Below are positions 40,061-63,344 of a DNA stretch of 64,000 bases, piece by piece. Within the stretch, counting starts at the first letter, position 1, and each line of letters starts with the position of its first letter. The notes beneath the pieces were generated by a model, which was given only the letters and a program-made list of their open reading frames with translations, did no database searches and had not been told where the DNA came from. The DNA comes from Bacteroides sp. GTDB taxonomy: Bacteria > Bacillota > Clostridia > Lachnospirales > Lachnospiraceae. The translations under genes and the position numbers were made by a program. The stretch lies in the NCBI GenBank assembly GCA_023666705.1, contig JAMPBO010000012.1, positions 1-64,000 on the forward strand, in the 5' to 3' direction.

Positions 40061-40450
40061 TTAAACACTTAAATCATTTTTAATTTGCGTCGTTGAAATT
40101 TCCGGTGTCCTTGGCAGGTACACAACCTCACAGTAATCCTTCAGGAAATCAAACTTTCCATTCCAGTCGTCTCCCATAACAAAGGTATCCACCTTAAATT
40201 CCTTTACATTATCTATTTTTTGCTCCCAGCTTTCCTCAGGTATTACAAGGTCAACATATCTGATTGCCTCCAAAAGCTGCTTTCTCTGTTCATACGTAAA
40301 ATAACATTTTTTCTGTTTCATATTCCAGTTAAATTCATCCGTTGACAAGGCTACAATCAGATAATCCCCTTGTTCCTTTGCCCTTCTCAGCAAATTGATA
40401 TGTCCGTAATGGAGCAAATCATAGGTTCCGTAGGTTATTACTTTTTTCAT
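40061..40450 (-). CDS. tagD: Glycerol-3-phosphate cytidylyltransferase, copy 2
   Basis: A 129-residue enzyme of normal TagD length that makes CDP-glycerol from CTP and glycerol-3-phosphate in the cytoplasm. Nucleotidylyltransferase motif HYGH at residues 14-17 (TYDLLHYGHINLL), followed by MGDDW and the C-terminal RTPEISTTQI, the TagD form of the RTxxISTTxI signature. It supplies the donor for the four glycerophosphotransferase-domain proteins of this locus. It is flanked by the DUF6056 protein and the unknown 513-residue protein with 13-14 bp gaps. It is closer to classical TagD than the second copy at 49178-49594. Confidence 0.93.
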   Translation of the reverse strand: MKKVITYGTYDLLHYGHINLLRRAKEQGDYLIVALSTDEFNWNMKQKKCYFTYEQRKQLLEAIRYVDLVIPEESWEQKIDNVKEFKVDTFVMGDDWNGKFDFLKDYCEVVYLPRTPEISTTQIKNDLSV

Positions 40451-40463
40451 TGTTCCTCTCCTT

Positions 40464-41978: not shown

Positions 41979-42042
41979 TTCACTGTTCCATAATGCGGGA
42001 TCTGCATTATTTTCCTCTCCTTAAAAATAATTGATATGAATT

Positions 42043-42990: not shown

Positions 42991-43092
42991 TTGCTACTTT
43001 CCTCTTTTTGCATAAACTAAAATCATTTTGTAACAGCACAAATACTATACAATAACGCCTTAAAAAAAGCAACCTCCGTACAGTATCCTACG

Positions 43093-44220: not shown

Positions 44221-44306
44221 TTTTTGTCTCCCTTTATCTCCTAACAATCCATCGTCCATTTCTTTTAGAGCCTTCTCTTTAGCTCCTTTTCAATTGTTCT
44301 TACTCT

Positions 44307-46663: not shown

Positions 46664-46674
46664 ATGGCAGGCTC

Positions 46675-47862: not shown

Positions 47863-47892
47863 ATTAATTCTCCATCCTCGTATAACAAAGCA

Positions 47893-49161: not shown

Positions 49162-49177
49162 AGCTTCTCCGTTCCGC

Positions 49178-49594
49178 TTAATAATCGTTTAACTTTTGTC
49201 TAAGTAACGTTGATGATGTATCCTTTGTGTATGGTAAAAATACCAATCTGGCTCCGACTGTCTCCAAAACCTTTCCGGTCTCCTCCCATCTTGCATTTCC
49301 CTTCCAGTCATCGCCAATGTATATTTCATCAAATCTGAGAGTATCCCACATTTCCATCTTGTCAAGGGTCGTCGTCACAACAACCTCGTCCACATACTTG
49401 ATTGCACGGACGATTGCAACCCGCTCCTCAAGAGGTATGATTGGGCGTTTTTCCTTGTAGCTCGCTACTAACTCATCGCTGTTTATGCCCACTATCAGAT
49501 AATCGCAATGCCTCTTTGCATTTTTCAGCAGGTTCAAATGTCCTATGTGAAACATGTCATATGTCCCTTGCGTATATCCCACTATTTTTTTCAT
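49178..49594 (-). CDS. tagD: Glycerol-3-phosphate cytidylyltransferase, copy 1
   Basis: A 138-residue nucleotidylyltransferase with HIGH at residues 16-19 (TYDMFHIGHLNLLKNAK), SDELVASYKEKRPIIPLEER, IYIGDDWKGNARW and a C-terminal TKDTSSTLLRQKL. That tail replaces the ISTT signature of classical TagD, so a different substrate (for example ribitol- or another polyol phosphate, or ethanolamine phosphate) is possible. The neighbouring glycerophosphotransferase-family genes on both sides make CDP-glycerol the simplest product. It lies 7 bp from the preceding gene and 16 bp from the next. A second, more canonical copy is at 40061-40450. Confidence 0.85.
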   Translation of the reverse strand: MKKIVGYTQGTYDMFHIGHLNLLKNAKRHCDYLIVGINSDELVASYKEKRPIIPLEERVAIVRAIKYVDEVVVTTTLDKMEMWDTLRFDEIYIGDDWKGNARWEETGKVLETVGARLVFLPYTKDTSSTLLRQKLNDY

Positions 49595-49601
49595 TGTGTT
49601 T

Positions 49602-50888
49602 TTATCTCTCCTTTTTTATTCCCAGATTTTTTATCATCCGCTCACGGTAATTTTCACATTGATTGTGCATAACCGGCAACAGCCTATGCCTTTCCTCCCT
49701 ATGCCTGTCCACACCCTGACATACATCCAATATAAATTTTTTCAAGTCATTAAAGGTATAAATCATTTCTCCCGGCATATAATCCGTCGGATTTTCAAAT
49801 ATAAATCCACGCTTCTGCTTATACTGTTCCATATCCCCAACCGCAAACCCAATTGGTCTGTCAAGCAGAATATAATCTACCGCAACAGAAGAATAATCAG
49901 AAATAAGAGCATCACTTACTGCAATAAAATGATACAATAATACATTTCGTTTATCAAGCAGTTTGTTATCCATGAATTTTATATTTTTGTATTTCTGTCC
50001 ACTATGCCCCGACGCCTGAAGCGGATGCCGTTTTATAACAAGAAGGCTTTCCGTCTCACCGCACATTTTGTCAAGTGCCTGTAAGCTCTCATCGTCATCT
50101 GCAACAGGGATTCCATATTTGAGTCCGATATCTCCCTCATCAAAGCCTGCCTCGGCAGCGGTGTTCCGAAAGGTGGGCATCCACAAAATCAGCCTGCGGT
50201 TTTTCATGGACGTGCCAAACAACCTTGCCATAATCGCCTGTTTGTCAAGCCCCTTTTGCAACAGCCAGTCATACCGCGGGTATCCGATTCCCAGTATTTT
50301 ATTCCTGTCACATTCCCAGTATCTCGCCTTTGCTTCCACAAAAAGCTCCCCCGGAACAAGTGCCAAATCAAACATTTCCATTGATTTACTGTACTTGATT
50401 TTGTTGTTCTTATGGGTGGAATCCTTATAACCGCAGCCATGCCATAGGTTGACTACAAGCTGTCCCTTTGCGGCACTCCGGTTCAAATTTGCAGTGTTGT
50501 TCGTGTAAAAAAAATATTTTGCAACGCATCCGTAATAAAATGCCCTTGGACTTGTCCATCCAAATTTATTTTCCGCAACTGCAACGGTAACATTTTTGTA
50601 TTTATTTCTGTCTATGCTTTTCCTGGAAGAAACAAGCCAGATTAATTTGTATTTTTCTGAATACCCGTTTTCATACAGATATTCAAAAAGTGCCCTTGCA
50701 TTATCTGTAAAATCCTGCTGCTGTCTGTTTTTGAATACAATATAATTTTCATGCAAGCCGCCAAAATGCCTGACGAAAAGATGCACAAGCTTCTCCCCAG
50801 TCAGTGTGGCAATGCGGCATAAATAGTAAAATAAAGTATATATCAATCCATTATTTTTTATTCTTTGTTTAATAATTTCTTTTTTCAT
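49602..50888 (-). CDS. CDP-glycerol glycerophosphotransferase family protein
   Basis: A 428-residue single-domain enzyme, a close paralogue of the protein at 47893-49161. Motifs: YFFYTNNTANLNRSAAKGQL, the active-site block LVVNLWHGCGYKDST, LGIGYPRYDWLL, LILWMPTFRNTAAEAGF, LLVIKRHP and ALISDYSSVAVDYILLDRP. The two probably perform successive or alternative glycerol-phosphate additions (primase and polymerase). The start codon (50888) lies one base after the stop of the exporter ATPase gene without a strong ribosome site, which implies translational coupling. A tagD gene follows after 7 bp. Confidence 0.9.
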   Translation of the reverse strand: MKKEIIKQRIKNNGLIYTLFYYLCRIATLTGEKLVHLFVRHFGGLHENYIVFKNRQQQDFTDNARALFEYLYENGYSEKYKLIWLVSSRKSIDRNKYKNVTVAVAENKFGWTSPRAFYYGCVAKYFFYTNNTANLNRSAAKGQLVVNLWHGCGYKDSTHKNNKIKYSKSMEMFDLALVPGELFVEAKARYWECDRNKILGIGYPRYDWLLQKGLDKQAIMARLFGTSMKNRRLILWMPTFRNTAAEAGFDEGDIGLKYGIPVADDDESLQALDKMCGETESLLVIKRHPLQASGHSGQKYKNIKFMDNKLLDKRNVLLYHFIAVSDALISDYSSVAVDYILLDRPIGFAVGDMEQYKQKRGFIFENPTDYMPGEMIYTFNDLKKFILDVCQGVDRHREERHRLLPVMHNQCENYRERMIKNLGIKKER

Positions 50889-50889
50889 C

Positions 50890-51627
50890 TTATTCCGTCA
50901 TTTTTTCATACTGCGGTGCAATCTCGTCTATATCACCATATGCAATCAGCTTTCCCTTGTCCAGTATCATTGCCTTATTACATATGTTTGTCACCTGCTT
51001 TAGGGAATGGGAAACAAGGAGCACCGTAACCCCATCTGTCATCATGCTCTTTATTTTATTTTCACTCTTTTTCTTAAACTTTGCATCACCTACCGACAGC
51101 ACTTCATCCAAAATGAGGATTTCCGGTGATACGACCGTAGCAATCGAAAAGCCAAGTCTCGCCTTCATACCTGATGAATAGCTGGAAAGCGGAACATCCA
51201 AAAATTCACCCAGCTCGGAAAATTCAGCTATCTCATCGAACTTTTCTTTTATAAATGCCTTACTGTAGCCCAAAATCGCCCCATACAAAAATATATTTTC
51301 CCGTCCCGTATACTCCGATGCAAAGCCTGCACCAAGCTCCAGGAGCGGTGCAATATTTCCGTATCGTTTCACAGTTCCCGTGGTAGGCTTAAACACACCT
51401 GAAATTATTTTCAGCAGTGTACTTTTTCCTGCACCGTTTAAACCCAAAATACCCACACGGTCACCCTTTTCAATGGTAAAGGAAACATCCGTCAGTGCCC
51501 AGAATTCCCTATACTGAATCTGGTGCTTTATCAGTTTAATGATATATTCCTTGAAGCTTTCGATTTTTTCCCTGCTCAAATTAAATTTTATACTTACATT
51601 GTCAACGACAATTGCCGGTTTACCCAT
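50890..51627 (-). CDS. Teichoic-acid ABC exporter ATPase (TagH type, no cargo domain)
   Basis: A 245-residue ATPase with Walker A GLNGAGKST near 62-70, LLELGAGFASEYTGRENIFLYG, the signature YSSGMKARLGF and Walker B ILILDEVL. It belongs to the TagH/RfbE subgroup, but unlike the Wzt-type protein at 21234-22577 it has no C-terminal carbohydrate-binding domain and is also shorter than B. subtilis TagH. It energises flipping of the lipid-linked polymer through the TagG-type permease encoded 11 bp upstream. ATG 51627 follows AGAGG at good spacing; the frame itself extends to a TTG at 51633. Confidence 0.92.
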   Translation of the reverse strand: MGKPAIVVDNVSIKFNLSREKIESFKEYIIKLIKHQIQYREFWALTDVSFTIEKGDRVGILGLNGAGKSTLLKIISGVFKPTTGTVKRYGNIAPLLELGAGFASEYTGRENIFLYGAILGYSKAFIKEKFDEIAEFSELGEFLDVPLSSYSSGMKARLGFSIATVVSPEILILDEVLSVGDAKFKKKSENKIKSMMTDGVTVLLVSHSLKQVTNICNKAMILDKGKLIAYGDIDEIAPQYEKMTE

Positions 51628-51638
51628 ATACAATACCT

Positions 51639-52415
51639 CTATATGTTCAATATAAATTTATCCTGTTCCTTCTTAAAATAAACGCATCCGATTAGGATGG
51701 TAATCATGCTAAACGCTGAAGCGTAAATTAAGTAATCCATATTTATAACCCTGCCAAAAACGGAGCTTCTGAAAATATCAATGATACAGTACAACGGATT
51801 GTACTTTAACAAAAATGCCCACTTACTCTCCAAAAGTTTTTCCGGATAATAGAAAATTGCACAGGTGTACATGATAAGCATCAACGCAACAGACCACAAG
51901 TATTCCATATCCCTGAAAAATACCCCTATCGTTGCCATAATCATACTGACGCCGTAGCTTAGCATAAATATAAGCAGCAGGGCTATCGGTGCCTGAAGCA
52001 GATATATGGTTGGATAAACACCTAACAGTATACTTGTGAAAAACAGTACGACCAATGAAATCAAAAAGATTACATAATCATAAAGCACCACGGAAAGCGG
52101 GTACAAATATTTCGGTACATACACCTTTTTTATCAGTCCTGAATTGGAACGGATTGACTTTACTGCTGACCTTGTAGATGTAGAAAAGAAACCGTACAAA
52201 AGTCTTGCAGTCAATATATAAACAGGAAATGTCTTATCCTCCCTGCCATATAATGTACCGAACACGATGGTCAGAACAAGTGTCTGCAATAGCGGCTCCA
52301 GCAGCGACCACACGATACCAAGATAAGAACGCCTGTATTTCAGCTTAATCCCCTTTTTTACAAGTTCCTTTAAAAGATTTCTATATTTCCAAAAGTTTTC
52401 CAGACTCTTTTTCAT
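51639..52415 (-). CDS. Teichoic-acid ABC exporter permease (TagG type)
   Basis: A 258-residue ABC-2 permease of typical TagG/KpsM length. Conserved N-terminal stretch LVKKGIKLKYRRSYLGIVWS, six transmembrane helices, and WAFLLKYNPLYCIIDIFRSSVFG at the family position near the end. With the TagH-type ATPase it exports the glycerol-phosphate polymer. It is the first gene of the operon that starts at the strong promoter at 52499-52526. The mRNA leader contains a long hairpin (52455-52498). The ribosome site is weak (AGGT, seven nucleotides upstream). Confidence 0.92.
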   Translation of the reverse strand: MKKSLENFWKYRNLLKELVKKGIKLKYRRSYLGIVWSLLEPLLQTLVLTIVFGTLYGREDKTFPVYILTARLLYGFFSTSTRSAVKSIRSNSGLIKKVYVPKYLYPLSVVLYDYVIFLISLVVLFFTSILLGVYPTIYLLQAPIALLLIFMLSYGVSMIMATIGVFFRDMEYLWSVALMLIMYTCAIFYYPEKLLESKWAFLLKYNPLYCIIDIFRSSVFGRVINMDYLIYASAFSMITILIGCVYFKKEQDKFILNI

Positions 52416-52454
52416 TTATAATACCTGTGTTTCCTATTTTATATAACCATTTTT

Positions 52455-52498
52455 GCACTCAGGACTCCTCCCAACTTCGTTGGGTCCCTCCTCAGTGC
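52455..52498 (-). promoter_or_regulatory. 5'-terminal leader hairpin of the exporter operon
   Basis: Minus strand: GCACTGAGGA pairs with TCCTGAGTGC (9 of 10 positions) around an inner CCCAAC / GTTGGG hairpin. It begins within a few nucleotides of the predicted transcription start, so it caps the mRNA. No U run follows it in the sense direction, so it is more likely a stabiliser or regulator site than a terminator. Confidence 0.6.
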
Positions 52499-52526
52499 AT
52501 TATACCACAATACCATATAATGTCAA
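52499..52526 (-). promoter_or_regulatory. Near-consensus sigma-A promoter of the exporter/teichoic operon
   Basis: Minus strand: TTGACA (52521-52526), 16-nt spacer, TATAAT (52499-52504). Both hexamers are consensus. The -35 overlaps the stop codon of the preceding glycosyltransferase gene. Confidence 0.88.
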
Positions 52527-53710
52527 AATGATTTATCCCCTCCCATTATTTTAGGTTGTCCCAAAAACAGTTTTTCATACAGTCCTGCGATGTGTTCCCA
52601 TGTGTATGCTTCCTTTATTCTCGCCTTTGCACGGACCCCGTACTCTTTTCTTTTGCTCTCATCAAATTGCTCTGCCTTGTTAATCAGTGCTGCCAAATTT
52701 CCACGAGACTTGTTCCAGTAAAGGGCAGCCCGTTCTCCCACCTCCCTGTTAAAGCTGACACCTAACAGCAAATTTACATCCGTTGCGGAAAGTGCCTCAA
52801 GCAGGCTTGGATTCGTGCCTCCTACCTCATGTCCGTGCAGGTACGCATATGCATGTCTCCTGATATCGAAAAGAAGCTGTTTTTCATAAACTGTACCAAC
52901 AAATTTTATTCTGTCGTCTGATTCAAAATCAAGCTTCTCCTGAAGCCTTTTATAAAAGCCCTCATCGGCAGTAGTCAATATTGCAAGGTCACGCTTACTG
53001 TCCGATTTCATAAATTCACGAAGCATGGTTTCAAAGTTATTTTCAGGAACAAATCTGCCCACAATCAAATAATATCCATATGGTGTAAGCTGTTTTTCCT
53101 TAAGCCATGCCTGATATTGTCCAAAAGAAGCAGCTTCCGTCTCAGGCAGCATATCCGCACCATATGCAATAAATGTAGTTTGGGGATTATATTTTTCATA
53201 TTCCTGCTTTATATATTTTTCTATCTGTTTGCTGTCACACACAAGTAAATCCGAATTTTTCACCATCATCCGTTCCGACAGCTTCCAGTAACACCGAATC
53301 GGCTTATTCCACTTGGAACGCTCCCATTCATGTCCATCGGGATTTACAAACAGTCTGCCGCCCAGACGGTGAAGCTTTCTTAGGTAGTGCCCGCAAAACG
53401 GTCCTATTCTGCATGCCAGCACATAAACAATGGGATTTTTTATGTTGTGCCTTTTGATGTAGCGGCAGCACATATGGAGTGCTTTTAAGTCGTAGTACAC
53501 TGCCTGTGCTGCCCCTATATCGGGAACCTTAACCGAAAAGCATCTGGCATTGTGGTATTTAATTTCCCTTTTCTCCATATTTTTGCAGGCAACGTGATAT
53601 CTGATATGCCTGTTTTCCTGATGATACTCCGTAAGTCGGTCTACAAAGGTCTCATATCCGCCGTAATTTCCCGGTATTCCCTTTGAGCCGACAATAAATA
53701 CATGTTGCAT
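52523..53710 (-). CDS. Rhamnosyltransferase-like GT4 enzyme (Cps2T/DUF1972 type)
   Basis: A 395-residue GT-B enzyme that opens with VFIVGSKGIPGNYGGYETFVDRL, the glycine-rich start typical of DUF1972/Cps2T beta-1,4-rhamnosyltransferases. It continues with AQAVYYDLKAL, VNPDGHEWERSKWNKPIRCYW, YLIVGRFVPENNFETMLREF and YLHGHEVGGTNPSLLEALSA (donor site). Cps2T adds L-rhamnose to undecaprenyl-PP-glucose as second step, which fits the initiating transferase 13 bp upstream and the rfbC gene elsewhere in the window. The frame extends to a TTG at 53722, but ATG 53710 follows GGAGG correctly. Confidence 0.88.
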   Translation of the reverse strand: MQHVFIVGSKGIPGNYGGYETFVDRLTEYHQENRHIRYHVACKNMEKREIKYHNARCFSVKVPDIGAAQAVYYDLKALHMCCRYIKRHNIKNPIVYVLACRIGPFCGHYLRKLHRLGGRLFVNPDGHEWERSKWNKPIRCYWKLSERMMVKNSDLLVCDSKQIEKYIKQEYEKYNPQTTFIAYGADMLPETEAASFGQYQAWLKEKQLTPYGYYLIVGRFVPENNFETMLREFMKSDSKRDLAILTTADEGFYKRLQEKLDFESDDRIKFVGTVYEKQLLFDIRRHAYAYLHGHEVGGTNPSLLEALSATDVNLLLGVSFNREVGERAALYWNKSRGNLAALINKAEQFDESKRKEYGVRAKARIKEAYTWEHIAGLYEKLFLGQPKIMGGDKSF

Positions 53711-53723
53711 GTTTTCCTCCAAA

Positions 53724-55124
53724 TTAAACTGAGCCTTTTTTTGTTACAACCGCCACAATGGTTTTCACGATGATTTTCATATCCAGGGTGATACTGAAAT
53801 TTTTGATATACTCGTTGTCCAGCCGTACGACCTCCTCAAAATCCGTAATATCATTCCTGCCTGAAACCTGCCACATCCCCGTAACGCCCGGCTTCATGGC
53901 AAGTCTGCTCTTATGATGTCCCGCATAACGCTCATATTCATCAACCGTCGGCGGTCTCGTGCCCACCAGACTCATATTACCCTTGAACACATTTATAAAT
54001 TGCGGAAACTCGTCCAAGCTCCACTTCCGCATAAATTTTCCGATTGGCGTGATTCTCGGATCATCGTCCATCTTAAACATAAGCCCTGACATTTTATTTT
54101 GATCCATCAAATCCTTTTTGCGTTCCTCGGCGTCCGCATACATGGAGCGGAACTTGTACATTTTGAATTTTCGTCCATTTTTACCTACCCGTATCTGCTT
54201 AAAAAATATGGAGCCCTTGGATTGTATTTTTATTGCAGGTCCAAAAATAATAAATAAAAGTAATGTTATGATAATGCCCACCAATGAGCCAAAAATATCA
54301 ATCAGCCGCTTGGCAATTTTCTGTTTTGTGGACATAAGATTGTTGCTTGTCGTGATAACCGTGTAGGAATTCATACGCTCCACAGCGGCATTTGGCACAT
54401 TTGTGACGATTCCGTTTAAATTTACATGCACCACCACGCCCATGGAAAGGAATTTGTTGACCACATGATTCAGATTTTTTCCGCCGTAATTTAAAAATAT
54501 TTCATCTATAACATTTCTTCTCACATAATCGTACATATCAATGCCTGTCGCCACAACATTTACATCATGAATCTGCTGCCCAACCATATTTTTATCAATA
54601 ATAACAACGCCCTGAACTGCAAAGGAAACATAGTTGACACCCGTAAGCCCCTTTATAAGCTCATCAGCATCCGCCCGCTCCGTAACCACAAGCACACGGC
54701 TCAGCTTCTCTTCTGTTTTAATGTGATGCCTCAAATATGATTTTAAAAGACAACGTGCACCATACATAAGCACCGAATCAATACCTACAAACAGTGCAAT
54801 CAAAATTCTGGAATAATCAGAGGATTGTTTCTGAAAGAACCAAATCGCAAGCAATACTGCAAGCAATTCGAAATTGTGCACAAGAACGTGCCTGATTTCC
54901 TTTCCGTAGCCCCGCCTTATGATACCGGAATAACATTCCGTAAAAAAAGCAATGGCAATGTGGGCAAGTATTACTATAATGTTCATCATAGTATAATCAC
55001 CCGGCACTGTCTGTTCCTGTCCTAAACGCACATAATAGGCGATGATAAAAGATACCTCGACACATATCAAATCTATGAATATGAAATCAAAATGCTTACT
55101 TCTGCTTGTATATCTGCCTGACAC
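53724..55124 (-). CDS. Initiating polyprenyl-phosphate sugar-1-phosphate transferase (CpsE/WbaP type)
   Basis: A 466-residue polyisoprenyl-phosphate hexose-1-phosphate transferase. The N-terminal half has about four transmembrane helices and a CoA-binding-like Rossmann part (LVVTERADADELI). A fifth helix (about 280-300) precedes the catalytic domain: FFKQIRVGKNGRKFKMYKFRSMY, ITPIGKFMRKWSLDEFPQ (catalytic Asp-Glu), GNMSLVGTRPP, KPGVTGMWQVSGR and the final LDMKIIVKTIVAV. It starts glycan assembly by loading a sugar phosphate, probably glucose-1-P, onto undecaprenyl phosphate. Start: GTG 55124 behind GGCGGTGA. A sigma-A-like promoter lies at 55163-55191. Confidence 0.92.
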   Translation of the reverse strand: MSGRYTSRSKHFDFIFIDLICVEVSFIIAYYVRLGQEQTVPGDYTMMNIIVILAHIAIAFFTECYSGIIRRGYGKEIRHVLVHNFELLAVLLAIWFFQKQSSDYSRILIALFVGIDSVLMYGARCLLKSYLRHHIKTEEKLSRVLVVTERADADELIKGLTGVNYVSFAVQGVVIIDKNMVGQQIHDVNVVATGIDMYDYVRRNVIDEIFLNYGGKNLNHVVNKFLSMGVVVHVNLNGIVTNVPNAAVERMNSYTVITTSNNLMSTKQKIAKRLIDIFGSLVGIIITLLLFIIFGPAIKIQSKGSIFFKQIRVGKNGRKFKMYKFRSMYADAEERKKDLMDQNKMSGLMFKMDDDPRITPIGKFMRKWSLDEFPQFINVFKGNMSLVGTRPPTVDEYERYAGHHKSRLAMKPGVTGMWQVSGRNDITDFEEVVRLDNEYIKNFSITLDMKIIVKTIVAVVTKKGSV

Positions 55125-55243: not shown

Positions 55244-56461
55244 TTATAATGCTTTTATCCTGTCTATCGCCTTCACCGTATTTTCGTTGGTGCCAAATGC
55301 TGTCAGACGGAAATATCCCTCTCCGCTCGGTCCAAAGCCTGAACCCGGTGTTCCCACAACATTTGCCTTTTCAAGCAAATAGTCAAAGAAATCCCACGAA
55401 TTCATTCCATCAGGCGTTTTCAGCCAGATATATGGGGCATTTACGCCGCCTGAAACGCTATAGCCTGCACTTTTCAGTCCGTCATATATATATCTTGCAT
55501 TGTTCATATAATAAGCAATCTGTTCCCTGGTCTGTGCTCTGCCCTCCTTGGAATATACCGCATCGCCTGCCTGCTGGACAATATAAGGTGCACCGTTATA
55601 TTTTGTTCCATGCCTTCTTGCCCAAAGCGGATTTAAGCTGGTTCCATCACTGCTGCAAAGTGCCTTGGGAACAACCGTAAAGCCAAGCCTCGTTCCCGTA
55701 AAGCCTGCATTTTTTGAGAAGCTTCTAAGCTCTATGGCACATTTTTTTGCTCCGTCGCACTCATAAATCGTGTGCGGGACATCCGCCTCACTGATATACG
55801 CCTCGTATGCGGCATCATAAATAATAACTGCCTTGATACGGTTTGCGTAATCCACCCACTTCTGAAGCTGTTCCTTGTTTACGGTTGCCCCTGTCGGATT
55901 ATTCGGGAAGCACAGATATATGATATCAGGCTCCTCCTTTGGAAGCTCAGGTGCAAAACCATTTTCCTCCTTACACGGCATGTAGATTACATTGCTCCAA
56001 AGCCCTGTGCTGCTGTCATAGGTACCGGTTCTCCCCGCCATAACATTCGAGTCAACATACACGGGATAAACAGGGTCGCAAACGGCGATTTTATTATCAA
56101 GAGAAAATATTTCCTGTATATTTCCAGAGTCGCATTTTGCACCGTCACTAATAAATATCTCGTCAATTTCAATATCCACGCCCCGCTCCTTATAGTCAAA
56201 TTTTGCTATGGAGCTTCTCAAAAATTCGTATCCAAGATCAGGTGCATACCCCTTAAAGGTTTCCTTTACCGCCATCTCATCCACCGCCTTATGCAGCCTG
56301 TCAATAATTGCAGGTGCAAGCGGCTGGGTGACATCACCGATTCCAAGCCTTATAATTTCCTTGTCAGGATTTTTCTCCTGATATTCCCTCACCTTTTTGC
56401 CGATTGTGGAAAACAAATAGCTTCCCGGCAGCTTTAAATAGTTATCATTTACCTTAAACAT
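55244..56461 (-). CDS. dapL: LL-diaminopimelate aminotransferase
   Basis: A 405-residue PLP-dependent aminotransferase that converts tetrahydrodipicolinate directly to LL-diaminopimelate with glutamate. Typical DapL N-terminus [21 protein letters not shown], then [21 protein letters not shown]-type motif ([15 protein letters not shown]), [18 protein letters not shown], and the Schiff-base lysine in [17 protein letters not shown]. The length is normal. It lies 19 bp after dapF, so both form one transcription unit supplying meso-DAP for peptidoglycan and lysine. Start: ATG 56461 behind AGGAGG. Its place between a dlt-like operon and teichoic genes is unusual for this pathway. Confidence 0.95.
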
Positions 56462-56480
56462 GTTCTTCCTCCTAAATCAT

Positions 56481-57350
56481 CTATATATCAGTTTCAATCA
56501 CACCGTCAAACACAACCTTCGCAGGTCCCGTCATGTACACGACATTTTGTTCCCTGTCCCATTTGATGATAAGCTCACCACCAAGCAGCCGGACCGTGAC
56601 CTCCTCCTCTGTAAGTCCATTTAACATACACGCAACTGCAGTGGCACAGGCTCCCGTTCCACAGGCAAGGGTTTCTCCCGTCCCACGTTCATACACACGC
56701 ATCTTAACATATTTTTTATTTACAACCTGTACAAACTCCGCATTGACCCGCCTTGGAAATATAGGGTCACGCTCAAAGCAGGCACCTATCTTCTCCAGTG
56801 GAAATGTATCAACATCCTCCACAAAGGTGATACAATGTGGATTTCCCATGGATACACAGGTGATATCCCATTCCTCGTCTGCAATCCTTACGGTGCGGCT
56901 GACGACCGTATCCTCACCGGAAACACCACTTATATGGACTGGAACAAGGGACGCCTGCAGAATAGGAGCACCCATGTTTACGGTAACCCCTGCAACCTTG
57001 CCCCGACCATCCTTTTCTTCATTTTCAATTTGAAGCTCCAGATATTTGATGCCTGCCAATGTCTCAACCGTCACAGATTTTTTATCGGTAAGTCCATAGT
57101 CATACACATATTTGCCAACGCACCGTATTCCGTTTCCGCACATCTCCGACTGGGAACCGTCCGCATTGTACATTTCCATGGTAAAATCTGCAATTTCGGA
57201 CGGTTTTATCAATATCAGTCCGTCCGAGCCAATTCCAAAATGCCTGTCACTCACCTTGATTGCAAGCTCTCTTGGATGATTCACCGTCTCACGAAAGCAG
57301 TTTACATATACGTAATCGTTTCCAAGACCTTCCATTTTAGTAAACTTCAT
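56481..57350 (-). CDS. dapF: Diaminopimelate epimerase
   Basis: A 289-residue cofactor-independent epimerase that interconverts LL- and meso-diaminopimelate. Motifs: MKFTKMEGLGNDYVYV at the N-terminus, FNADGS-type block (MYNADGSQSEMCGNGIRC, first catalytic Cys), GNPHCITFV, and ERGTGETLACGTGACA (second catalytic Cys). The frame extends to 57416, but the family start MKFTKMEG at ATG 57350, with AAGGAG upstream, is clearly right. It is the first gene of the dapF-dapL pair. Its leader contains a 73-bp inverted-repeat element flanked by 14-bp direct repeats, and a sigma-A-like promoter lies beyond that. Confidence 0.95.
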   Translation of the reverse strand: MKFTKMEGLGNDYVYVNCFRETVNHPRELAIKVSDRHFGIGSDGLILIKPSEIADFTMEMYNADGSQSEMCGNGIRCVGKYVYDYGLTDKKSVTVETLAGIKYLELQIENEEKDGRGKVAGVTVNMGAPILQASLVPVHISGVSGEDTVVSRTVRIADEEWDITCVSMGNPHCITFVEDVDTFPLEKIGACFERDPIFPRRVNAEFVQVVNKKYVKMRVYERGTGETLACGTGACATAVACMLNGLTEEEVTVRLLGGELIIKWDREQNVVYMTGPAKVVFDGVIETDI

Positions 57351-57371
57351 AGTGTCATGCTCCTTACACTT

Positions 57372-57472
57372 CATATAGCCAAATAGGTAATTGCAAAATA
57401 CTGTTTTTTTGAACATTCGTTGTACAATATAGATAATATGACATTTCGCAATTGCCTACATATAGCCAAATA
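57372..57472. mobile_element. MITE-like insertion in the dapF leader
   Basis: CATATAGCCAAATA occurs at 57372-57385 and again at 57459-57472 as a perfect 14-bp direct repeat. Between them lies a 73-bp segment with imperfect terminal inverted repeats: GGTAATTGCAAAAT (57386-57399) and ATTTCGCAATTGCC (57443-57456), 12 of 14 positions complementary. The layout (target duplication, terminal repeats, no gene) is that of a miniature inverted-repeat element. Alternatively, the repeats could be paired regulator sites. Confidence 0.55.
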
Positions 57473-57485
57473 AATTTTCGCTTCA

Positions 57486-57514
57486 AGTGTACCACACGTT
57501 TTTATAAAACGCAA
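57486..57514 (-). promoter_or_regulatory. Promoter of dapF-dapL
   Basis: Minus strand: TTGCGT (57509-57514), 17-nt spacer, TACACT (57486-57491). It lies upstream of the MITE-like segment, which would therefore be transcribed in the leader. Confidence 0.6.
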
Positions 57515-57556
57515 TTGGCAGTGTGAAAATCGGGCAGTCACCAAAGGCATACCCTG

Positions 57557-58519
57557 CTACTTCTCCAATTCATAAATTGCTTTGCTGGATTCCTTCCAGT
57601 CCTCGTAATCTTGCTCCTCCCTTAAATCAGGAAGCCCGCATGTTTTGCTTAAATATTCTCCAATATATCTTGTCACCTTTTTGGCACCTGCATAATTTAC
57701 GTGGTCTCCGCCATCCTTTGTATCCGTATTCCAGTCCATGTTCAGGCTGTTTTGCAGATTCAAATCCAAATATGCGACCTGCGATTTATCCGCCCAGTTT
57801 TTTACGCTGTTATGCTTTGCGTATGTCCAGTTCTTAGGAGACGGTGTGCTTACAAGCAGCAGCTTCGCATTATTTTCACTGCAAAGCTTTTGTATTTTAT
57901 CCATGTAGGTATATGTATCACTTGGAAATTGCTCCTCATCCTGACATTCAACCATATAGCAGCCTCCCGTATAAGGATTTACGCTGTTCCTTACTATGAA
58001 GCCCTTTAGCTTGTCATTTTCCTTTTTTCCCGTTCCGTTTCCTGTCACATTGCTAACAAAATTTTTCCAGTCGGAATGATACGCAAATACAGACAGGCGG
58101 TTTGTCAAAAAGTTGAGCACTCCATCCTTACTGTCTTCGGAGGTGTCAGCTCCTCTGTAAAGGCAATTTGTTTCTATGACAACCACCTTAGGGGACTGTG
58201 TTTTAAATGCTTCCTCCAATATGGTGTAAGTATCACAAAGCCTTTGGGCGGATGTTCCACATACATAGGAGGTATGTCCGAACTCCGAAAATAAAAGCAT
58301 CGGACAAAAGCTGGAATAGCACTCACTGTCACCACAAAATAAGACCTCAAGGGAATTATCCTTTTCCGCATCCACCTCATTTATTTTACGCTCCACCGAC
58401 TCCCTGTCATATACATTGGCAAAGCTTTTTCTGTTAAATACAACTGACATGGCAAGCAGTAATATTAAAAGTCCAAGCAGAAAGCCTGCTGCCCGCAAAA
58501 TACTTTTATTTATTTTCAT
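57557..58519 (-). CDS. SGNH/DHHW-like exported protein (DltD/AlgJ-like)
   Basis: A 320-residue protein with one N-terminal membrane anchor (about 8-27) and an extracytoplasmic SGNH-hydrolase-like domain. Block I is LFCGDSECYSSF (Ser nucleophile candidate), and a late block DGGDHVNYAGA provides the Asp and His. This matches AlgJ/AlgX- and DltD-like partners of MBOAT acyltransferases, which complete acyl transfer onto a polymer outside the cell. It directly follows the MBOAT gene (33 bp). Start: ATG 58519 behind AGAGGTG; the longer frame from 58549 has no ribosome site. It is the last gene of the dlt-like operon before the dapF promoter. Confidence 0.8.
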   Translation of the reverse strand: MKINKSILRAAGFLLGLLILLLAMSVVFNRKSFANVYDRESVERKINEVDAEKDNSLEVLFCGDSECYSSFCPMLLFSEFGHTSYVCGTSAQRLCDTYTILEEAFKTQSPKVVVIETNCLYRGADTSEDSKDGVLNFLTNRLSVFAYHSDWKNFVSNVTGNGTGKKENDKLKGFIVRNSVNPYTGGCYMVECQDEEQFPSDTYTYMDKIQKLCSENNAKLLLVSTPSPKNWTYAKHNSVKNWADKSQVAYLDLNLQNSLNMDWNTDTKDGGDHVNYAGAKKVTRYIGEYLSKTCGLPDLREEQDYEDWKESSKAIYELEK

Positions 58520-58552
58520 AAAAACACCTCTTTCGTACTTTTGCATCACCTG

Positions 58553-60043
58553 CTAGTATGCGGCGTAAATCATATCTACAACGGTATAACCTGCACCGTA
58601 TGCTCCAAGAATAACTACACTCAGTATAACGGCATACCATACACCCCAGCGGAGCGGCAGCCTTAAGGAAGCAATCCGTTCCCTGACTGAAATCCCCCTT
58701 TCATGCAAAACGTCAACCAGCAGCACAACCACAAGTCCCACCAGTGACAAAATAATATCATAGGCATCCATTCCCAAATTGCTCTCCAACAAAGCAGAAA
58801 TATGGAAGTTGCCGAAAATGCGTCCCAGCATGGAAAAGCCCTGTCTGACACTTGCTGCCCTGAAAAACAGTTCTCCGGTATTGACGATTAAAAACAGCTT
58901 GATACCCCGAAGTAGCTTACAAATCGTCCCCTCCATGTTGATATTCTTTCGTGCTGCAAGCTTTTTAATGGGTGCCTCCGTTATATTTTCAATAAATATC
59001 AGTACAAAATAATACATTCCGTAAAATATGTATGTCCACCCTGCACCATGCCATATGCCGTTTGAAAGCCACACACAAAACAGTGCTGCCGTAGGTGCAA
59101 CAAATTTGCTGACACCAATTCCGAATTTACCCTTCACGCTTTTTGCCACCTTCTTGACAGGCTTTGCAAGAGACACGGGATAAAATACATAATCCTTCAG
59201 CCATGTGCCAAGGGTAATGTGCCATCTACGCCAAAAATCAGATGCATTTTTTGCAAAGAACGGCTGCCTGAAATTTTCAGGAAGTACAACACCAAATATT
59301 TCCCCTGTTCCAATTATAATATCCATGCAGCCTGAAAATTCCATGTAAAGCTGTATGGTATAAAAAACAACTCCAACCGCAACTGCCGTGCCATCATAAT
59401 TTTCATAGCCGGAAAACACCTTGAACACTGCTGGTGCAAGTCTGTCCGCAATCAGCATTTTCTTAAATAAGCCCCACAAAATTCTCTGGTAGCCAAATGC
59501 AACATTCTGAAATGCAAGCTGTTTCCCTGAAAAAAGTGCAGGTGCCGTCTCGTTGTATCTGCTGATTGGTCCCTCCATAATTTGAGGGAAAAAGCTTAAA
59601 TACAGTGCAAGTTTTCCAAGATGCGTTTCTGCCTTTACCGTTCCCCTGTACACATCCGTCATATAAGAAATCGTTTGGAGCGTATAATAGGATATTCCAA
59701 TTGGTGCAATAAATGTAATTCCAAACATCTTTAAATATTTAAACACAATCAGCATACCAAGCGTAAGCATTACGCCGATTCCCAGTATGAGCCGCTTTTT
59801 TCGCACCAACTCTTTACCCTTTGCAGTGGAATACTCTGCCACATAGGCAATCACACGTCCACAAACGTAGGTTACAAGCGTTGCAGCAAGCATCCAAATG
59901 ATAAGCTTACCGCTTATCAGCCAGAAAAATATGTAATCCGCCGCAAGTAGCGTCACCCATCTTGCCTTTTGGGGTGTAAGCTGATACACAAGCATCACCG
60001 CAGGTAAAAACAGCAGGCTGTAAGTAAGTAAATGATAAGACAA
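58553..60043 (-). CDS. MBOAT-family O-acyltransferase (DltB/AlgI-like)
   Basis: A 496-residue membrane enzyme with about 11 helices. Family motifs: FPQIMEGPISRYNE, YMEFSGCMDIIIGTGEIFG, FRQPFFAKNASDFWRRWHITLGTWL (family WRRWHxTL block) and LSNGIWHGAGWTYIFYGMYY with the catalytic His of NGIWHG. Such proteins transfer an acyl or aminoacyl group from a carrier thioester, through the membrane, to an outer acceptor. Start: TTG 60043 directly follows the carrier-protein stop, with GGGAGA as ribosome site; the next Met is 16 codons in. Between the carrier-protein and SGNH genes it is the DltB equivalent of this operon. Confidence 0.9.
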   Translation of the reverse strand: MSYHLLTYSLLFLPAVMLVYQLTPQKARWVTLLAADYIFFWLISGKLIIWMLAATLVTYVCGRVIAYVAEYSTAKGKELVRKKRLILGIGVMLTLGMLIVFKYLKMFGITFIAPIGISYYTLQTISYMTDVYRGTVKAETHLGKLALYLSFFPQIMEGPISRYNETAPALFSGKQLAFQNVAFGYQRILWGLFKKMLIADRLAPAVFKVFSGYENYDGTAVAVGVVFYTIQLYMEFSGCMDIIIGTGEIFGVVLPENFRQPFFAKNASDFWRRWHITLGTWLKDYVFYPVSLAKPVKKVAKSVKGKFGIGVSKFVAPTAALFCVWLSNGIWHGAGWTYIFYGMYYFVLIFIENITEAPIKKLAARKNINMEGTICKLLRGIKLFLIVNTGELFFRAASVRQGFSMLGRIFGNFHISALLESNLGMDAYDIILSLVGLVVVLLVDVLHERGISVRERIASLRLPLRWGVWYAVILSVVILGAYGAGYTVVDMIYAAY

Positions 60044-60044
60044 T

Positions 60045-60275
60045 CTAATTATCTCCCTTCAATCTGCAAACCATTTCCCAAAGCTTTTGGGCCGAGTTAA
60101 AGTTATCCGGTATCAGCTCTGCAGGCGATATCTCAATGTCAAATTCCTCCTCAAGCTCTGATACAAGCGATAGGATTGCAAATGAATCTAATATGTGGTC
60201 ATCAATCAGCGTCGTGCAGGTTCCGACATCTGCTCCCTGTGCAATTTCCTCCAAAATCTCCAATAATTTTTCCAT
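60045..60275 (-). CDS. Acyl carrier protein (DltC-like)
   Basis: A 76-residue four-helix carrier protein. The phosphopantetheine attachment serine is in DDHILDSFAILSLVSELEEEF (Ser40 region; shown motif HILDSF). The acidic helix II/III and the length match DltC and stand-alone ACPs. It is likely loaded by the DltA-like enzyme (61513-63036), and its cargo may be modified by the decarboxylase encoded 12 bp upstream. It then hands the group to the MBOAT, whose start lies one base after this stop. Start: ATG 60275 behind AGGAGG. LDSF instead of DltC-typical LDSxGT(V/M) suggests a distinct partner set. Confidence 0.9.
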   Translation of the reverse strand: MEKLLEILEEIAQGADVGTCTTLIDDHILDSFAILSLVSELEEEFDIEISPAELIPDNFNSAQKLWEMVCRLKGDN

Positions 60276-60287
60276 TTTAAATTCCTC

Positions 60288-61511
60288 CTATTCTTTGAAC
60301 GTCACCAAATTTGAATTCAGTATATTTATTTCAGTTTTATGCCGAAGCCTGTCCACTGTGCCATCCGCCCTTACGAAAAGCACCTGCGGCAAATCCCTGC
60401 TCAAAAACAATGCCATTCCCTCTGTTACTGCGTATGCACCACAGCGTTCAAAGGAAAGAACCTCCCCTATTTTCGGGCAGTCAGGCTTAATATCCCTCAC
60501 CAGCACGTCATTTACAGTACACAGCGAACCGCAGACTGCGTATCCGCATGGTCCGCCATTATTTTGTTCCACTGCTTTTACTGCATTTTCTCCAATCAGC
60601 TTCATATATGGCTTTTTCATTCCCATCAGCTGACCATAATAATTTATCTGATGAATGCCTCCATCTACTATCATGTAGCCTGAATTTCCCGTCTGCTTGA
60701 TATCCATGATACGCGTAAGAAAATATCCACAGTCCGCCGTCAGGAATCGTCCTAACTCTATTGTAACTTTTTTATAGCCGTCAAGCTTTTCCAGCATACG
60801 TGCAAGTCCCATAAGCTGCAGTTCGGCATCCGCCGACGCCTTTTCCGCTTCACTGTCATTTTCAAAATAAGACACCTTAAGTCCCGGTCCGTACTCAAGT
60901 TCCAAGCCGTCAAGCTGATATGTTTTTGAAATCCGTTTTGCAACATCCTCCAAAAGCTTCAACTCTTTTTCTACCTTTTCAAGCTTTTTCTGTGTTCCGC
61001 CATAATAATGAAGTCCTGCTACATCCATAAGGTCATCCTCATAAATCTGCGACAGAAGCTGCATAATGCTTTCCTCATCCATGCCAAACTGATTCCCTGA
61101 GGATAGTCTCGGCAATACCTTAAGCCTCACGTCAAACTTTTTTGCACATGCCTTCAAAACCTCATATTGCTGCCTCGACTCTATAGTATAAGTACCTTTC
61201 CCCTGGCTGAAGTACATAATTTCTTCCATCTGCTCCAACGTCTTGCTGACCCCTGACACGACAAGCTGATCCGTAGCAATTCCCTCCCGGATACAGATTT
61301 CATACTCGCCAAAGGAACACACCTCCAGCTTGTCGGTAAGTCTGGCAAGTGCTCCCGCCAAAAACGGATTTGCCTTCATTGCAAAACAAAGTTCCGTATT
61401 CCTTAGCAGTGTTCTGATTAAATCAACACGTCTGATTAATGTTTCCTCAAAAAATACATAGGATGGTGTGCCATATCTTTCAGCAATTTCCATCAATTTA
61501 CTTTCGTACAC
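60288..61511 (-). CDS. PLP-dependent decarboxylase, LysA/BtrK-like, in a dlt-like operon
   Basis: A 407-residue fold-type III PLP enzyme. The PLP lysine lies in ELCFAMKANPF (about residue 46). GLHYYGGTQ takes the place of the LysA-type HIGSQ loop, and LEYGPGL, VTIELGRFL and the C-terminal CGSLCTVNDVLVRD (catalytic Cys and Asp) follow. The overall pattern is that of diaminopimelate/ornithine decarboxylases. The GTQ and LCTxxD variants look closer to BtrK-like enzymes, which decarboxylate an amino acid while it is bound to a carrier protein. A carrier protein gene follows after 12 bp and an adenylating enzyme gene precedes by one base. A substrate of meso-DAP (giving lysine) also fits the nearby dapF/dapL. 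Start: GTG 61511 behind GGAGG. Confidence 0.82.
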   Translation of the reverse strand: MYESKLMEIAERYGTPSYVFFEETLIRRVDLIRTLLRNTELCFAMKANPFLAGALARLTDKLEVCSFGEYEICIREGIATDQLVVSGVSKTLEQMEEIMYFSQGKGTYTIESRQQYEVLKACAKKFDVRLKVLPRLSSGNQFGMDEESIMQLLSQIYEDDLMDVAGLHYYGGTQKKLEKVEKELKLLEDVAKRISKTYQLDGLELEYGPGLKVSYFENDSEAEKASADAELQLMGLARMLEKLDGYKKVTIELGRFLTADCGYFLTRIMDIKQTGNSGYMIVDGGIHQINYYGQLMGMKKPYMKLIGENAVKAVEQNNGGPCGYAVCGSLCTVNDVLVRDIKPDCPKIGEVLSFERCGAYAVTEGMALFLSRDLPQVLFVRADGTVDRLRHKTEINILNSNLVTFKE

Positions 61512-61512
61512 T

Positions 61513-63036
61513 TTATTTCCTCCCCTTTTTGTATGTTTCCTTTAACAATGCCCTGTCTGTCTTTCCATTTTTTGTAACCGGAAGCTCGTCCATAACAATG
61601 AACACGTTCGGCACCATATAATCCGGTACCTTTTTTCTCATTTCCTCCACAATCTGCCGCTTGTCGCCGTCTCCTACATAGCAGGCAACAACCTTGCTTT
61701 TTTCCTCGTCAAAGAAACAGCAGCCCTGTGAAACACAGCTTACACCTCCAAGCACACTTTCTATTTCCTCAAGCTCTATTCTATGACCCATATGCTTAAT
61801 CTGGAAATCCTTTCTTCCTGCAAAAAACAGCAAGCTCTCCTCATTTCGGTATCCAAGGTCGCCCGTCCTGTATATGACTTCAGGAAAGCGGGGTTCCAGC
61901 GGGTTTATTGTAAATGCTTTTTCTGTCATTTCTTTGTTGTTGTAATATCCCAGTGCAAGACATGTTCCTGCCACACATAATTCTCCTGTGACATTCGGCA
62001 TATCCTTTGTTATTTCCTTATCGTTTTCATCGAGCAAAAATACTCTTTCATTTGGAAATGCATGTCCCATCGGCAGCATCTCATCCTCTGCAAATTCCCT
62101 GTCCAAAATGTAATATGTACAATTGCATGTAATCTCCGTCGGTCCGTACAGATTGACAAACATTGCATCAGGATAATGGCTTCTCCAGCCGTTCAGCTGC
62201 TTAATCGGCATCATTTCACCACTGAACAAAATCTTGTTTATATTTGCAGGCACCTTATATTTCAGTCCATGCAGCCGGTTTAACAGACAGAGTGCCGACA
62301 CTGCCCATATCAGCGTTGTCACATTATTTTTATCCAGCATATCAACAACCTGATTTGGAAACATAAAATATGCCTTTGGTATCATTACAATTGTAGCCCC
62401 TGCCTTAAGGGTGCTGTAAATATCCTTTACTGACACATCAAAATCAAAGGGTGCCTGATTGCCAATGACATCGGTTTCTGTTATATGGAACAGCTCCGTG
62501 AAATGGTCAATAAAATCTATAATGGAACGGTGGCAGACCAAAACTCCCTTGGGTACACCCGTGGAGCCTGACGTAAAATTACAGTAAACACCGTCCATAT
62601 CCGTCGCTTCATTGCGGATCTGGGACAAAACAGCCTCGTCACATGGCAGATGATTGAAATCCTCAACAAATAGGATTTGCCCCATATAGCCTGTTCCACG
62701 CAGCTTTTGTTCCTGCTCTTTTTTCGTTATGACAATGTCATTTTGAAGCGTATCAAGCATACTCCTGATTCGGTCATCAGGGAAAGACGGATCCACCAGA
62801 CTGTAAAAACAGCCGCTATATAAAGTTCCCATAAACACTTTAAGGCATGCAACGCTTTTGTCCATAAAAACCACCACAGGCATCCTTGCACAGGTTTTTG
62901 CCGCAAGCAATGTTCCGATTCCCTTAGCCGTCTCCATAAGCTCCTTGTATGTACATGCTTCTTTATCATCACGTGCCACCTGCTTATCCGGATGCTTCAA
63001 AGTGCTTTCTTCAAGATATTCCAAAACATTTTTCAT
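61513..63036 (-). CDS. DltA-like amino-acid adenylating enzyme
   Basis: A 507-residue ANL-superfamily ligase of DltA length that activates an amino acid with ATP and loads it on a carrier protein. Motifs in order: A3 NFTSGSTGVPKGV, A4 FDFDVSVKDIY (Asp for the substrate amino group), A5 NLYGPTEIT, A7 YRTGDLG, A8 DFQIKHMGHRIELEEIE and A10 lysine in PVTKNGKTDR. At the place where DltA has FCGE, whose Cys supports D-Ala selection, this protein reads LFSGEMM, so D-alanine is not the obvious substrate. Start: ATG 63036 with GGAGA upstream; an in-frame ATG at 63048 overlaps the ribosome site. It is the first gene of the dlt-like operon. Confidence 0.87.
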   Translation of the reverse strand: MKNVLEYLEESTLKHPDKQVARDDKEACTYKELMETAKGIGTLLAAKTCARMPVVVFMDKSVACLKVFMGTLYSGCFYSLVDPSFPDDRIRSMLDTLQNDIVITKKEQEQKLRGTGYMGQILFVEDFNHLPCDEAVLSQIRNEATDMDGVYCNFTSGSTGVPKGVLVCHRSIIDFIDHFTELFHITETDVIGNQAPFDFDVSVKDIYSTLKAGATIVMIPKAYFMFPNQVVDMLDKNNVTTLIWAVSALCLLNRLHGLKYKVPANINKILFSGEMMPIKQLNGWRSHYPDAMFVNLYGPTEITCNCTYYILDREFAEDEMLPMGHAFPNERVFLLDENDKEITKDMPNVTGELCVAGTCLALGYYNNKEMTEKAFTINPLEPRFPEVIYRTGDLGYRNEESLLFFAGRKDFQIKHMGHRIELEEIESVLGGVSCVSQGCCFFDEEKSKVVACYVGDGDKRQIVEEMRKKVPDYMVPNVFIVMDELPVTKNGKTDRALLKETYKKGRK

Positions 63037-63117
63037 AGCTGTCTCCATTTAACCTAACAGTAAACTGTTGCTTTTCCAGATTATTTACCAATCATCTGTT
63101 CCATGGCTTTGTATTAT

Positions 63118-63130
63118 TTGTATAGTACAA
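63118..63130. promoter_or_regulatory. Operator-like dyad at the start of the dlt-like operon
   Basis: TTGTATAGTACAA is a 13-bp dyad (TTGTA-N3-TACAA) that overlaps the predicted transcription start. A neighbouring TAGTACAGTA continues the GTAC-rich pattern. It is well placed for a repressor; the regulator is unknown. Confidence 0.45.
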
Positions 63131-63134
63131 TAGT

Positions 63135-63163
63135 ACAGTAACACAATTTATAACTGCTGTCAA
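63135..63163 (-). promoter_or_regulatory. Sigma-A-like promoter of the dlt-like operon
   Basis: Minus strand: TTGACA (63158-63163), 17-nt spacer, TACTGT (63135-63140). Consensus -35, weaker -10. Confidence 0.75.
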
Positions 63164-63289: not shown

Positions 63290-63322
63290 AATAAACAAAG
63301 CCCCGACCACCTGGTCAGGGCT
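63290..63322 (-). terminator. Terminator of the ssb-rpsR operon
   Basis: AGCCCCGACC (63299-63308) and GGTCAGGGCT (63313-63322) form a stem with one mismatch and a 4-nt loop. It is followed on the minus strand by TTGTTTATTC, 22 bp after the rpsR stop. Confidence 0.85.
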
Positions 63323-63344
63323 CCACCTTTGGACTAATATAACA

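Follow-up and report, generated by a model that had tools for sequence, protein, structure and literature searches.

What does a Dlt-like operon with a built-in amino acid decarboxylase attach to the cell surface? The question is raised by a window of 64,000 nucleotides (positions 1 to 64,000 of contig JAMPBO010000012.1, assembly GCA_023666705.1, labelled Bacteroides sp. and placed by GTDB in the Lachnospiraceae). Here, five adjoining minus-strand genes encode a DltA-like stand-alone amino-acid adenylating ligase (61513..63048; AMP-binding/DltA-like family matches), a fold-type III pyridoxal 5'-phosphate (PLP) decarboxylase of its own clade (60288..61511; Orn/DAP/Arg decarboxylase family match), a DltC-like carrier protein (60045..60275; PP-binding/DltC-like family match), a DltB-like membrane-bound O-acyltransferase (MBOAT; 58553..60043; MBOAT/DltB-like family match) and, in place of DltD, an SGNH protein recognized by its predicted structure, with an N-terminal helix that is probably a membrane anchor (57557..58549). 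Encounters of Gram-positive bacteria with cationic peptides, with enzymes and with factors of the host are governed by the charge of their wall polymers, for which D-alanylation serves as the textbook example. From sequence and by analogy with characterized enzymes, we consider it reasonably probable that this operon would load an acidic amino acid, decarboxylate it on the carrier and pass the product via the MBOAT and SGNH proteins to an extracellular polymer. If so, the wall would receive a building block different from D-alanine.

A sequence-only reading of the window had described these genes, with dapF and dapL behind them, as a Dlt-like operon with a built-in decarboxylase, and all seven frames do lie on the minus strand where it had placed them. 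The operon also holds up elsewhere and is widespread. We surveyed 200 genomes from the family of the window and fetched 42 loci from 41 of them (G090 twice; window excluded); to these we added named records, the best 80 of at least 568 confirmed stretches. The two sets overlap, with some genomes present in both, and L102 and L052/L241 represent a single genome (L and G denote our loci and genomes). All five genes occur together within the stretch read in 27 of the 42 survey loci and in 70 of the best 80 named records; 50 of these 80 show the exact order of the window, and 10 are arranged as MBOAT-SGNH-ligase-decarboxylase-carrier. Labels among the best 80 are mostly Lachnospiraceae, Clostridium and Eubacteriales; Oscillospiraceae and Ruminococcaceae are also represented, as are two species of Enorma, and a single bin bears the label Paenibacillaceae. 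Gemmiger formicilis and a Lacrimispora species are among these records. The five-gene arrangement is real, recurrent and beyond chance. Its distribution is patchy, because a decarboxylase match at E <=1e-30 is found in 42 of the 200 family genomes (the weakest, in G108, being distant and TIGR03099-like) and the one same-genus genome searched gave no decarboxylase match at E 1e-30. A ligase matching our clade profile at E <=1e-165 is present in 74 of the 200 genomes, and a canonical DltA above the curated cut-off in 6. In the genome of the window no further DltA was found; the best DltA-family match there is the window ligase, itself below the cut-off.

Judged by its sequence, the decarboxylase is not LysA. 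It scores 134 bits against TIGR01048, the LysA family (cut-off 297.9), and 148 against TIGR03099 (cut-off 478). Another gene of the same genome is lysA-like, reaching 276.9 bits against TIGR01048, just below the cut-off, and the genome also encodes carboxynorspermidine decarboxylase. We aligned the window enzyme (L089) with 37 others (alignment A1, with L050, L052, L073, L081 and L083 omitted from 43 frames) and calculated an unrooted tree of 25 sequences, 19 of them taken from these 38. The 19 operon decarboxylases form one clade with support of 100/100, and a clade joining the window enzyme with the LysA rows was rejected by the approximately unbiased test (p 0.0005). The operon clade lies next to BtrK, TIGR03099-like and LysA rows, and the tree, being unrooted, ranks neither BtrK nor LysA as nearer. 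When the family profile from alignment A1 was compared with solved structures, BtrK came first (217 bits), followed by SbnH (184 bits), with the best LysA at 177 bits; in the profile alignment, the motifs L-C-T...D and G-A-Y...F-L are common to the family and BtrK. With the window sequence alone as query, a Thermotoga LysA leads (89 bits) and BtrK is fifth (63 bits).

The active site bears out this placement. Residues K46, R135, C331 and E364 are invariant in all 38 aligned sequences, none of which has lost the PLP lysine, the ExGR arginine or the cysteine of the decarboxylase; we take this cysteine to be the catalytic Cys of the decarboxylase type. The residue that follows it, Glu in LysA, is Thr in 34 and Ser in 4 of the 38, and the Arg-Pro motif of LysA aligns to Tyr-x-Gly-Gln in the operon enzyme. 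Both the Arg-Pro motif and the Cys-Glu pair of LysA presumably serve the distal centre of diaminopimelate. A branch joining BtrK, SbnH and related enzymes with diaminopimelate decarboxylase has been described, and the members named in that description, except the diaminopimelate and D-ornithine enzymes, use amino acids conjugated at the side-chain end (PMC7857480). The sequence-only reading had left open whether the enzyme is LysA-like, with dapL, dapF and the decarboxylase providing lysine for a lysylated polymer, or BtrK-like. A housekeeping LysA identity is ruled out by the other lysA-like gene, the tree and the changed active-site positions: the enzyme falls outside LysA, in a genome with a second lysA-like gene. 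The lysine-supply version is likewise not supported, dapF and dapL not being general neighbours of the operon. The BtrK-like version is favoured by the profile scores, the changed distal-centre residues and a lysine in the ligase pocket, and the enzyme probably acts in the manner of BtrK, on a carrier-bound amino acid.

The ligase is related to DltA but reads a different pocket. It scores 294 bits against the DltA family (cut-off 560), and a quick tree sets all 81 clade ligases apart from six DltA proteins with a Shimodaira-Hasegawa-like approximate likelihood ratio support of 100, the sole support type calculated; this tree omits L072 and L075, includes the duplicate pairs L089/L248 (the window) and L241/L249 (G101) and contains no named record. 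Ten pocket positions were numbered by GrsA, part of that numbering being our assumption, and checked against the DltA pocket residues given in PMC11253843. In the window they are D204, V205, K208, I247, L274, S276, L300, C308, N309 and K496, giving the code DVKILSLCNK. A common core, made up of D-V-K (D-I-K or D-L-K in two cases), Ser at 301 and Cys-Asn at 330-331, is found in 111 of 114 ligases, or in 104 of 107 once duplicates are removed; among the 114, position 239 is Lys in 112 and Arg in 2, and D235 is kept in 112. At these positions, nine DltA proteins from the same family, all canonical or nearly so, have DLMVLCTVAK or, as a close variant, DLMVLCTVCK. The pocket lysine suggests, from sequence, an acidic substrate. 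Because Lys239 would find no partner on beta-alanine or gamma-aminobutyric acid (GABA), the loaded form probably still has its carboxylate, with decarboxylation following later. The residues V236 and S301 exceed the GrsA alanines in bulk, as they do in VinN, and DltA is bulky there too.

The three remaining proteins were also compared with Dlt components. The carrier matches PP-binding, with its DltC match below the cut-off (39 versus 68 bits), and Ser31, the expected phosphopantetheine site, is invariant in 30 of 30 sequences. For the MBOAT, DltB is the better of two PDB matches (E 5e-19), and the score against TIGR04091 is 156 versus a cut-off of 375. The histidine motif WHG is present in 105 of 105 MBOAT proteins, and 102 end in a hydrophobic-hydrophobic-Tyr-x-x-Phe/Tyr motif, the other three being one variant (FQYMQF) and two truncated frames. 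The window MBOAT ends in ...DMIYAAY, which is acyl-shuttle-like; the FxYxxF acyl-shuttle motif is described as being supplied by DltX in Dlt and carried by PatA itself (PMC12148441). The SGNH frame gave no Pfam or NCBIfam match at E 0.001 and no sequence match to DltD in PDB. Its AlphaFold2 model has a predicted local distance difference test score of 85.4, and the best SGNH/GDSL hydrolase match to this model has an E of 5e-7 and template-modelling scores of 0.40 by query and 0.60 by target; DltD ranks 26th (E 2.2e-5). An alignment of 20 SGNH proteins shows Ser75 and His283 in every one and Asp279 in 19.

From these parts we infer the following route. The ligase would adenylate an acidic amino acid and attach it by the side-chain carboxyl to the carrier's phosphopantetheine arm, and the PLP enzyme would remove the alpha-carboxyl from the carrier-bound substrate, as BtrK and VinO do. 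The MBOAT would accept the resulting omega-aminoacyl group on the tyrosine of the shuttle motif at its own C-terminus and hand it to the SGNH serine; the SGNH protein would then esterify the extracellular polymer. Aspartate, giving a beta-alanyl group, is our first choice of substrate, albeit a tentative one held at somewhat below an even chance. An Asp-type precedent for the carrier-dependent route is provided by VinN-VinL-VinO and FlvN, as presented in PMC11284099. A sister ligase clade, in which a pocket with the same lysine goes with an Asp/cysteate-type racemase gene, also speaks for the route. A further hint comes from the placement of family genes in pantothenate (pan) operons, which suits beta-alanine. 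Of 53 genomes with a panC match (51 above the cut-off), G101, G002 and G098 gave no panD match, panC being weak in G098. The G101 operon reads DUF2520-panB-panC-coaBC-ligase-decarboxylase (L241 10240-17278), and in G002 a carrier gene stands just before DUF2520-panB-panC-coaBC (L240 5561-10000). Hence both panD-less genomes with panC above the cut-off hold a family component in the pan operon.

Several observations weigh against the route as drawn, or against beta-alanine as its product. The beta13-beta14 loop of the window ligase is as long as that of DltA, unlike the shortened loop described for the beta-amino-acid enzyme VinN (PMC11253843); this normal length argues against beta-carboxyl loading in the manner of VinN. 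D235 and K517, both kept here, are given in PMC12283262 as typical of alpha-amino-acid activation, with VinN keeping D235 as well. Of 122 ligases with the DVK..S.CN pocket, ten (10 of 114 without duplicates) are not accompanied by a decarboxylase over 7 kb or as far as the stretch extends; one of the ten lies at a contig end. In some cases, therefore, the amino acid may be left as it was loaded. Conversely, among 117 decarboxylase-linked ligases, L072 and L075 read IARGCSQASK, with no D235 and with Arg at 239, and L073 has a pocket of the racemase-linked type discussed below. We counted L072 and L075 as exceptions in the pocket tallies; theirs is a real second pocket beside a decarboxylase, and if side-chain carboxyl activation of a longer acid occurs anywhere in the family, they may be the candidates. 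The pantothenate link is qualified too: G002 has no such decarboxylase despite the carrier in its pan operon, so that the link may be to the phosphopantetheine arm; the genome of the window has panD of its own; and panD is not rarer in decarboxylase-positive genomes (12 of 42 versus 38 of 158, Fisher p 0.55). On this lack of association we rejected the decarboxylase as a general substitute for PanD.

Other substrates were weighed on the same evidence. Glutamate could be loaded by its gamma-carboxyl and become GABA on the carrier, as in butirosin biosynthesis; we place it second and regard it as unlikely. In its favour, some domains that activate glutamate have a lysine at position 239; against it, the butirosin loading enzyme is of another type and beta-alanine is the product to which the pan operons point. 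Among solved structures the nearest to the family profile is BtrK, which performs this very reaction (PMC7857480), and the L072/L075 pocket would fit a substrate whose amine is remote from the carboxyl being activated; set against this, D235, described as binding an amine at the alpha or beta position (PMC11253843), is retained by all but two of the 114 ligases. Diaminopimelate comes third and is improbable. It would be loaded through one alpha-carboxyl and decarboxylated at its other centre on the carrier, yielding a lysylated polymer, and an alpha-type pocket (D235, normal loop) with the distal carboxylate at K239 would accommodate it. Its appeal lies also in the genes behind the operon, dapF (diaminopimelate epimerase) and dapL (LL-diaminopimelate aminotransferase), but their association proves mostly local. 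We compared 122 loci of other records: dapF and dapL both come after the operon in L090 alone, the closest relative of the window operon (76% decarboxylase identity); dapF by itself directly follows it in L122, dapL lies near it in L063, and neither gene was matched in the remaining 119 (BLAST at E 1e-30 over stretches of at most ~17 kb). Three loci of 122, one of them a near relative, is about the level of chance neighbours by a rough estimate, and we rejected dapF and dapL as members of the system on this synteny. They are probably mere neighbours, and the link to lysine supply incidental. Moreover, the LysA residues that we assume to serve the distal centre are changed here, and another lysA-like gene is present in the genome. 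Some other substrate, or a different order of steps, takes up the rest of the probability.

The order of loading and decarboxylation admits a further alternative, to which we give less credence than to glutamate: the decarboxylase might act on the free amino acid and the ligase load the product, beta-alanine or GABA. IdnL3 is reported to be such a case, with free beta-glutamate decarboxylated before loading (PMC11284099), and the ligases that share the pocket in the absence of a nearby decarboxylase would be at home in this scheme. It leaves the pocket lysine (arginine in two ligases) facing a substrate that offers it no partner, and BtrK and VinO are both described as using carrier-bound substrates (PMC7857480, PMC11284099). 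By analogy with the D-alanine of Dlt, the PLP enzyme could instead have the alanine-racemase fold and work as a racemase or epimerase, providing an amino acid of D configuration. The Ala_racemase_N profile does match it, and a racemase gene accompanies a sister clade of the ligase; the C-terminal decarboxylase domain, the cysteine that we take to be of decarboxylase type (38/38) and the fact that the closest solved relatives are decarboxylases make this very improbable. We attach less weight still to the notion that, in some genomes, ligase, carrier and decarboxylase remain cytoplasmic and make beta-alanine for pantothenate in place of PanD. It derives from G101, in which ligase and decarboxylase sit in a pan operon and neither a panD nor an SGNH match was found in the genome. 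But G101 is a single genome, 93% complete, and its carrier gene sits apart from the pan operon at the end of a contig, so that an adjoining MBOAT gene could have been lost, and G101 was not searched for MBOAT; the genome of the window has both panD and a full MBOAT/SGNH pair. The preferred reading thus stays with an acidic amino acid decarboxylated on the carrier and exported.

How such a system would relate to known ones can be read from its parts. With Dlt (DltA-DltC-DltB-DltD-DltX) it shares an adenylating ligase, a small carrier, an MBOAT with a catalytic His and an SGNH protein in one operon, and a carrier thioester, the donor in Dlt, would be the donor here as well. It differs in its pocket (DVK..S.CN versus DLMVLCTVAK), in a ligase clade apart from DltA, in a shuttle-like motif inside the MBOAT where Dlt has DltX, and in the extra PLP decarboxylase. 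BtrI-BtrJ-BtrK of butirosin biosynthesis offers fold-type III PLP decarboxylation of a carrier-bound amino acid, as predicted here; the window system has its own decarboxylase clade and a DltA-like loading ligase, and its product is predicted to be exported by MBOAT and SGNH proteins rather than built into an antibiotic. A ligase-decarboxylase pair is also seen in the exosortase-A-associated proteins TIGR03098 and TIGR03099, the latter being the best NCBIfam match of the window decarboxylase at the 148 bits given above. Both window proteins score far below the respective cut-offs, however (the ligase 190 versus 592 bits, the decarboxylase 148 versus 478), and we know of no MBOAT/SGNH pairing for the exosortase-A-associated enzymes. 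The macrolactam systems VinN-VinL-VinO and FlvN, as described in PMC11284099, combine a ligase, a stand-alone carrier and a carrier-dependent PLP decarboxylase for (methyl)aspartate; the window system is set apart from them, on the basis of the description in PMC11253843, by ligase pocket and loop length, and it has no polyketide synthase. PatA-PatB, which O-acetylates Gram-negative peptidoglycan, likewise pairs an SGNH protein with an MBOAT that has its own C-terminal FxYxxF motif (PMC12148441). PatA uses acetyl-CoA, whereas the window system encodes a ligase and carrier with its MBOAT. By its sequences, the window system would thus combine the carrier-protein input of Dlt with the built-in shuttle of PatA.

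The kinds of component are already known; their combination is new. We found no report of a Dlt-like operon with a decarboxylase in the open-access literature, a scope that excludes most subscription papers and all bioRxiv preprints. If our proposal is true, the envelope of common gut bacteria would bear amino-acyl groups other than D-alanine, and chemists would know what to seek; it would also join carrier-bound decarboxylation of the antibiotic type with MBOAT/SGNH export and offer a simple in vitro assay.

Related operons hint that the decarboxylase may be one of several exchangeable parts. In a sub-clade of ligases with the pocket DAKC.GLGMK, which contains the same lysine as the decarboxylase-linked pocket, 15 of 19 members stand next to a gene for a racemase, a count unchanged without duplicates. 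Two of these racemases were tested and scored above the NCBIfam cut-offs for an amino acid racemase subfamily and cysteate racemase. From sequence, the racemase operons are candidate D-aspartylation systems. The racemase gene stands without a decarboxylase in L243 (7373-8125), L247 (7287-8000) and 13 further loci, mostly together with carrier, MBOAT and SGNH genes. L073 belongs to this sub-clade with a near pocket, and lies beside a decarboxylase frame; that frame (5716-9057, 1114 residues) joins the decarboxylase to immunoglobulin-like and transglutaminase-like domains of a surface protein, as a fusion or through an assembly fault. A formyltransferase gene (Formyl_trans_N) occurs in 3 of the 10 operons that have the DVK..S.CN pocket and no decarboxylase (L275 5559-6440, L277 5425-6303, L265 5-850). 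In L242, L264, L266 and L267, related ligase-carrier pairs with other pockets are interrupted or flanked by a gene for an acetyltransferase, AAC(3)-like or of the GNAT type, and a DUF4910 protein was confirmed in L267. We put forward, with slightly less than even confidence, that gut Clostridia use one carrier-MBOAT-SGNH chassis with ligases of varied pockets and interchangeable modifying enzymes (decarboxylase, racemase for acidic amino acids, formyltransferase and acetyltransferases). Wall or surface polymers would then be esterified not with D-alanine but with beta-alanyl or GABA, D-aspartyl, N-formyl and further amino-acyl groups.

A natural candidate for the source of the acceptor lies close to the operon. 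Directly downstream of dapL, a teichoic-acid-like glycopolymer gene cluster of 23 kb (32286..55124, minus strand) encodes four proteins of the glycerophosphotransferase family (Glyphos_transf), an ABC-2 exporter, an AT3 acyltransferase, a Stealth protein and an undecaprenyl-phosphate sugar transferase, together with several glycosyltransferases and a Cps2T-type rhamnosyltransferase. Seven of its proteins were searched at 187 loci (BLAST E 1e-10, ~8 kb on each side): GPT4 was found in 2, Cps2T in 1 and the other five in none. Since the cluster genes are hardly found at other loci within this distance, synteny does not name the acceptor. A RelA/SpoT-domain protein is encoded beside the cluster at 31144-32103.

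Between the cluster and the five-gene operon lie dapL (55244..56461) and dapF (56481..57416), both on the minus strand and far above the curated cut-offs of their families. The sequence-only reading had given dapF a promoter of its own, for which the 140-base gap 57417-57556 provides no minus-strand promoter-like match. At the other end, a terminator-like hairpin of 16 pairs after rpsR (63328-63293, minus strand; feature 63293..63328) sits between that gene and the operon and marks its upstream border; across the region such terminator-like sites show no excess (5 versus 6.8 in shuffled sequences). At 15 of the 42 survey loci (for example L080 12080-12811 and L062 7192-8511) a shared gene cluster is present, whose tested member, that of L080, is an OmpR-type response regulator. 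This cluster adjoins the SGNH gene in L060, L062, L064, L068 and L080, with a histidine kinase confirmed in L062, and at loci of this kind the system may be under two-component control. Far from the operon, at 294-14064 of the window, six consecutive minus-strand frames of 716-750 residues each possibly form a tandem family.

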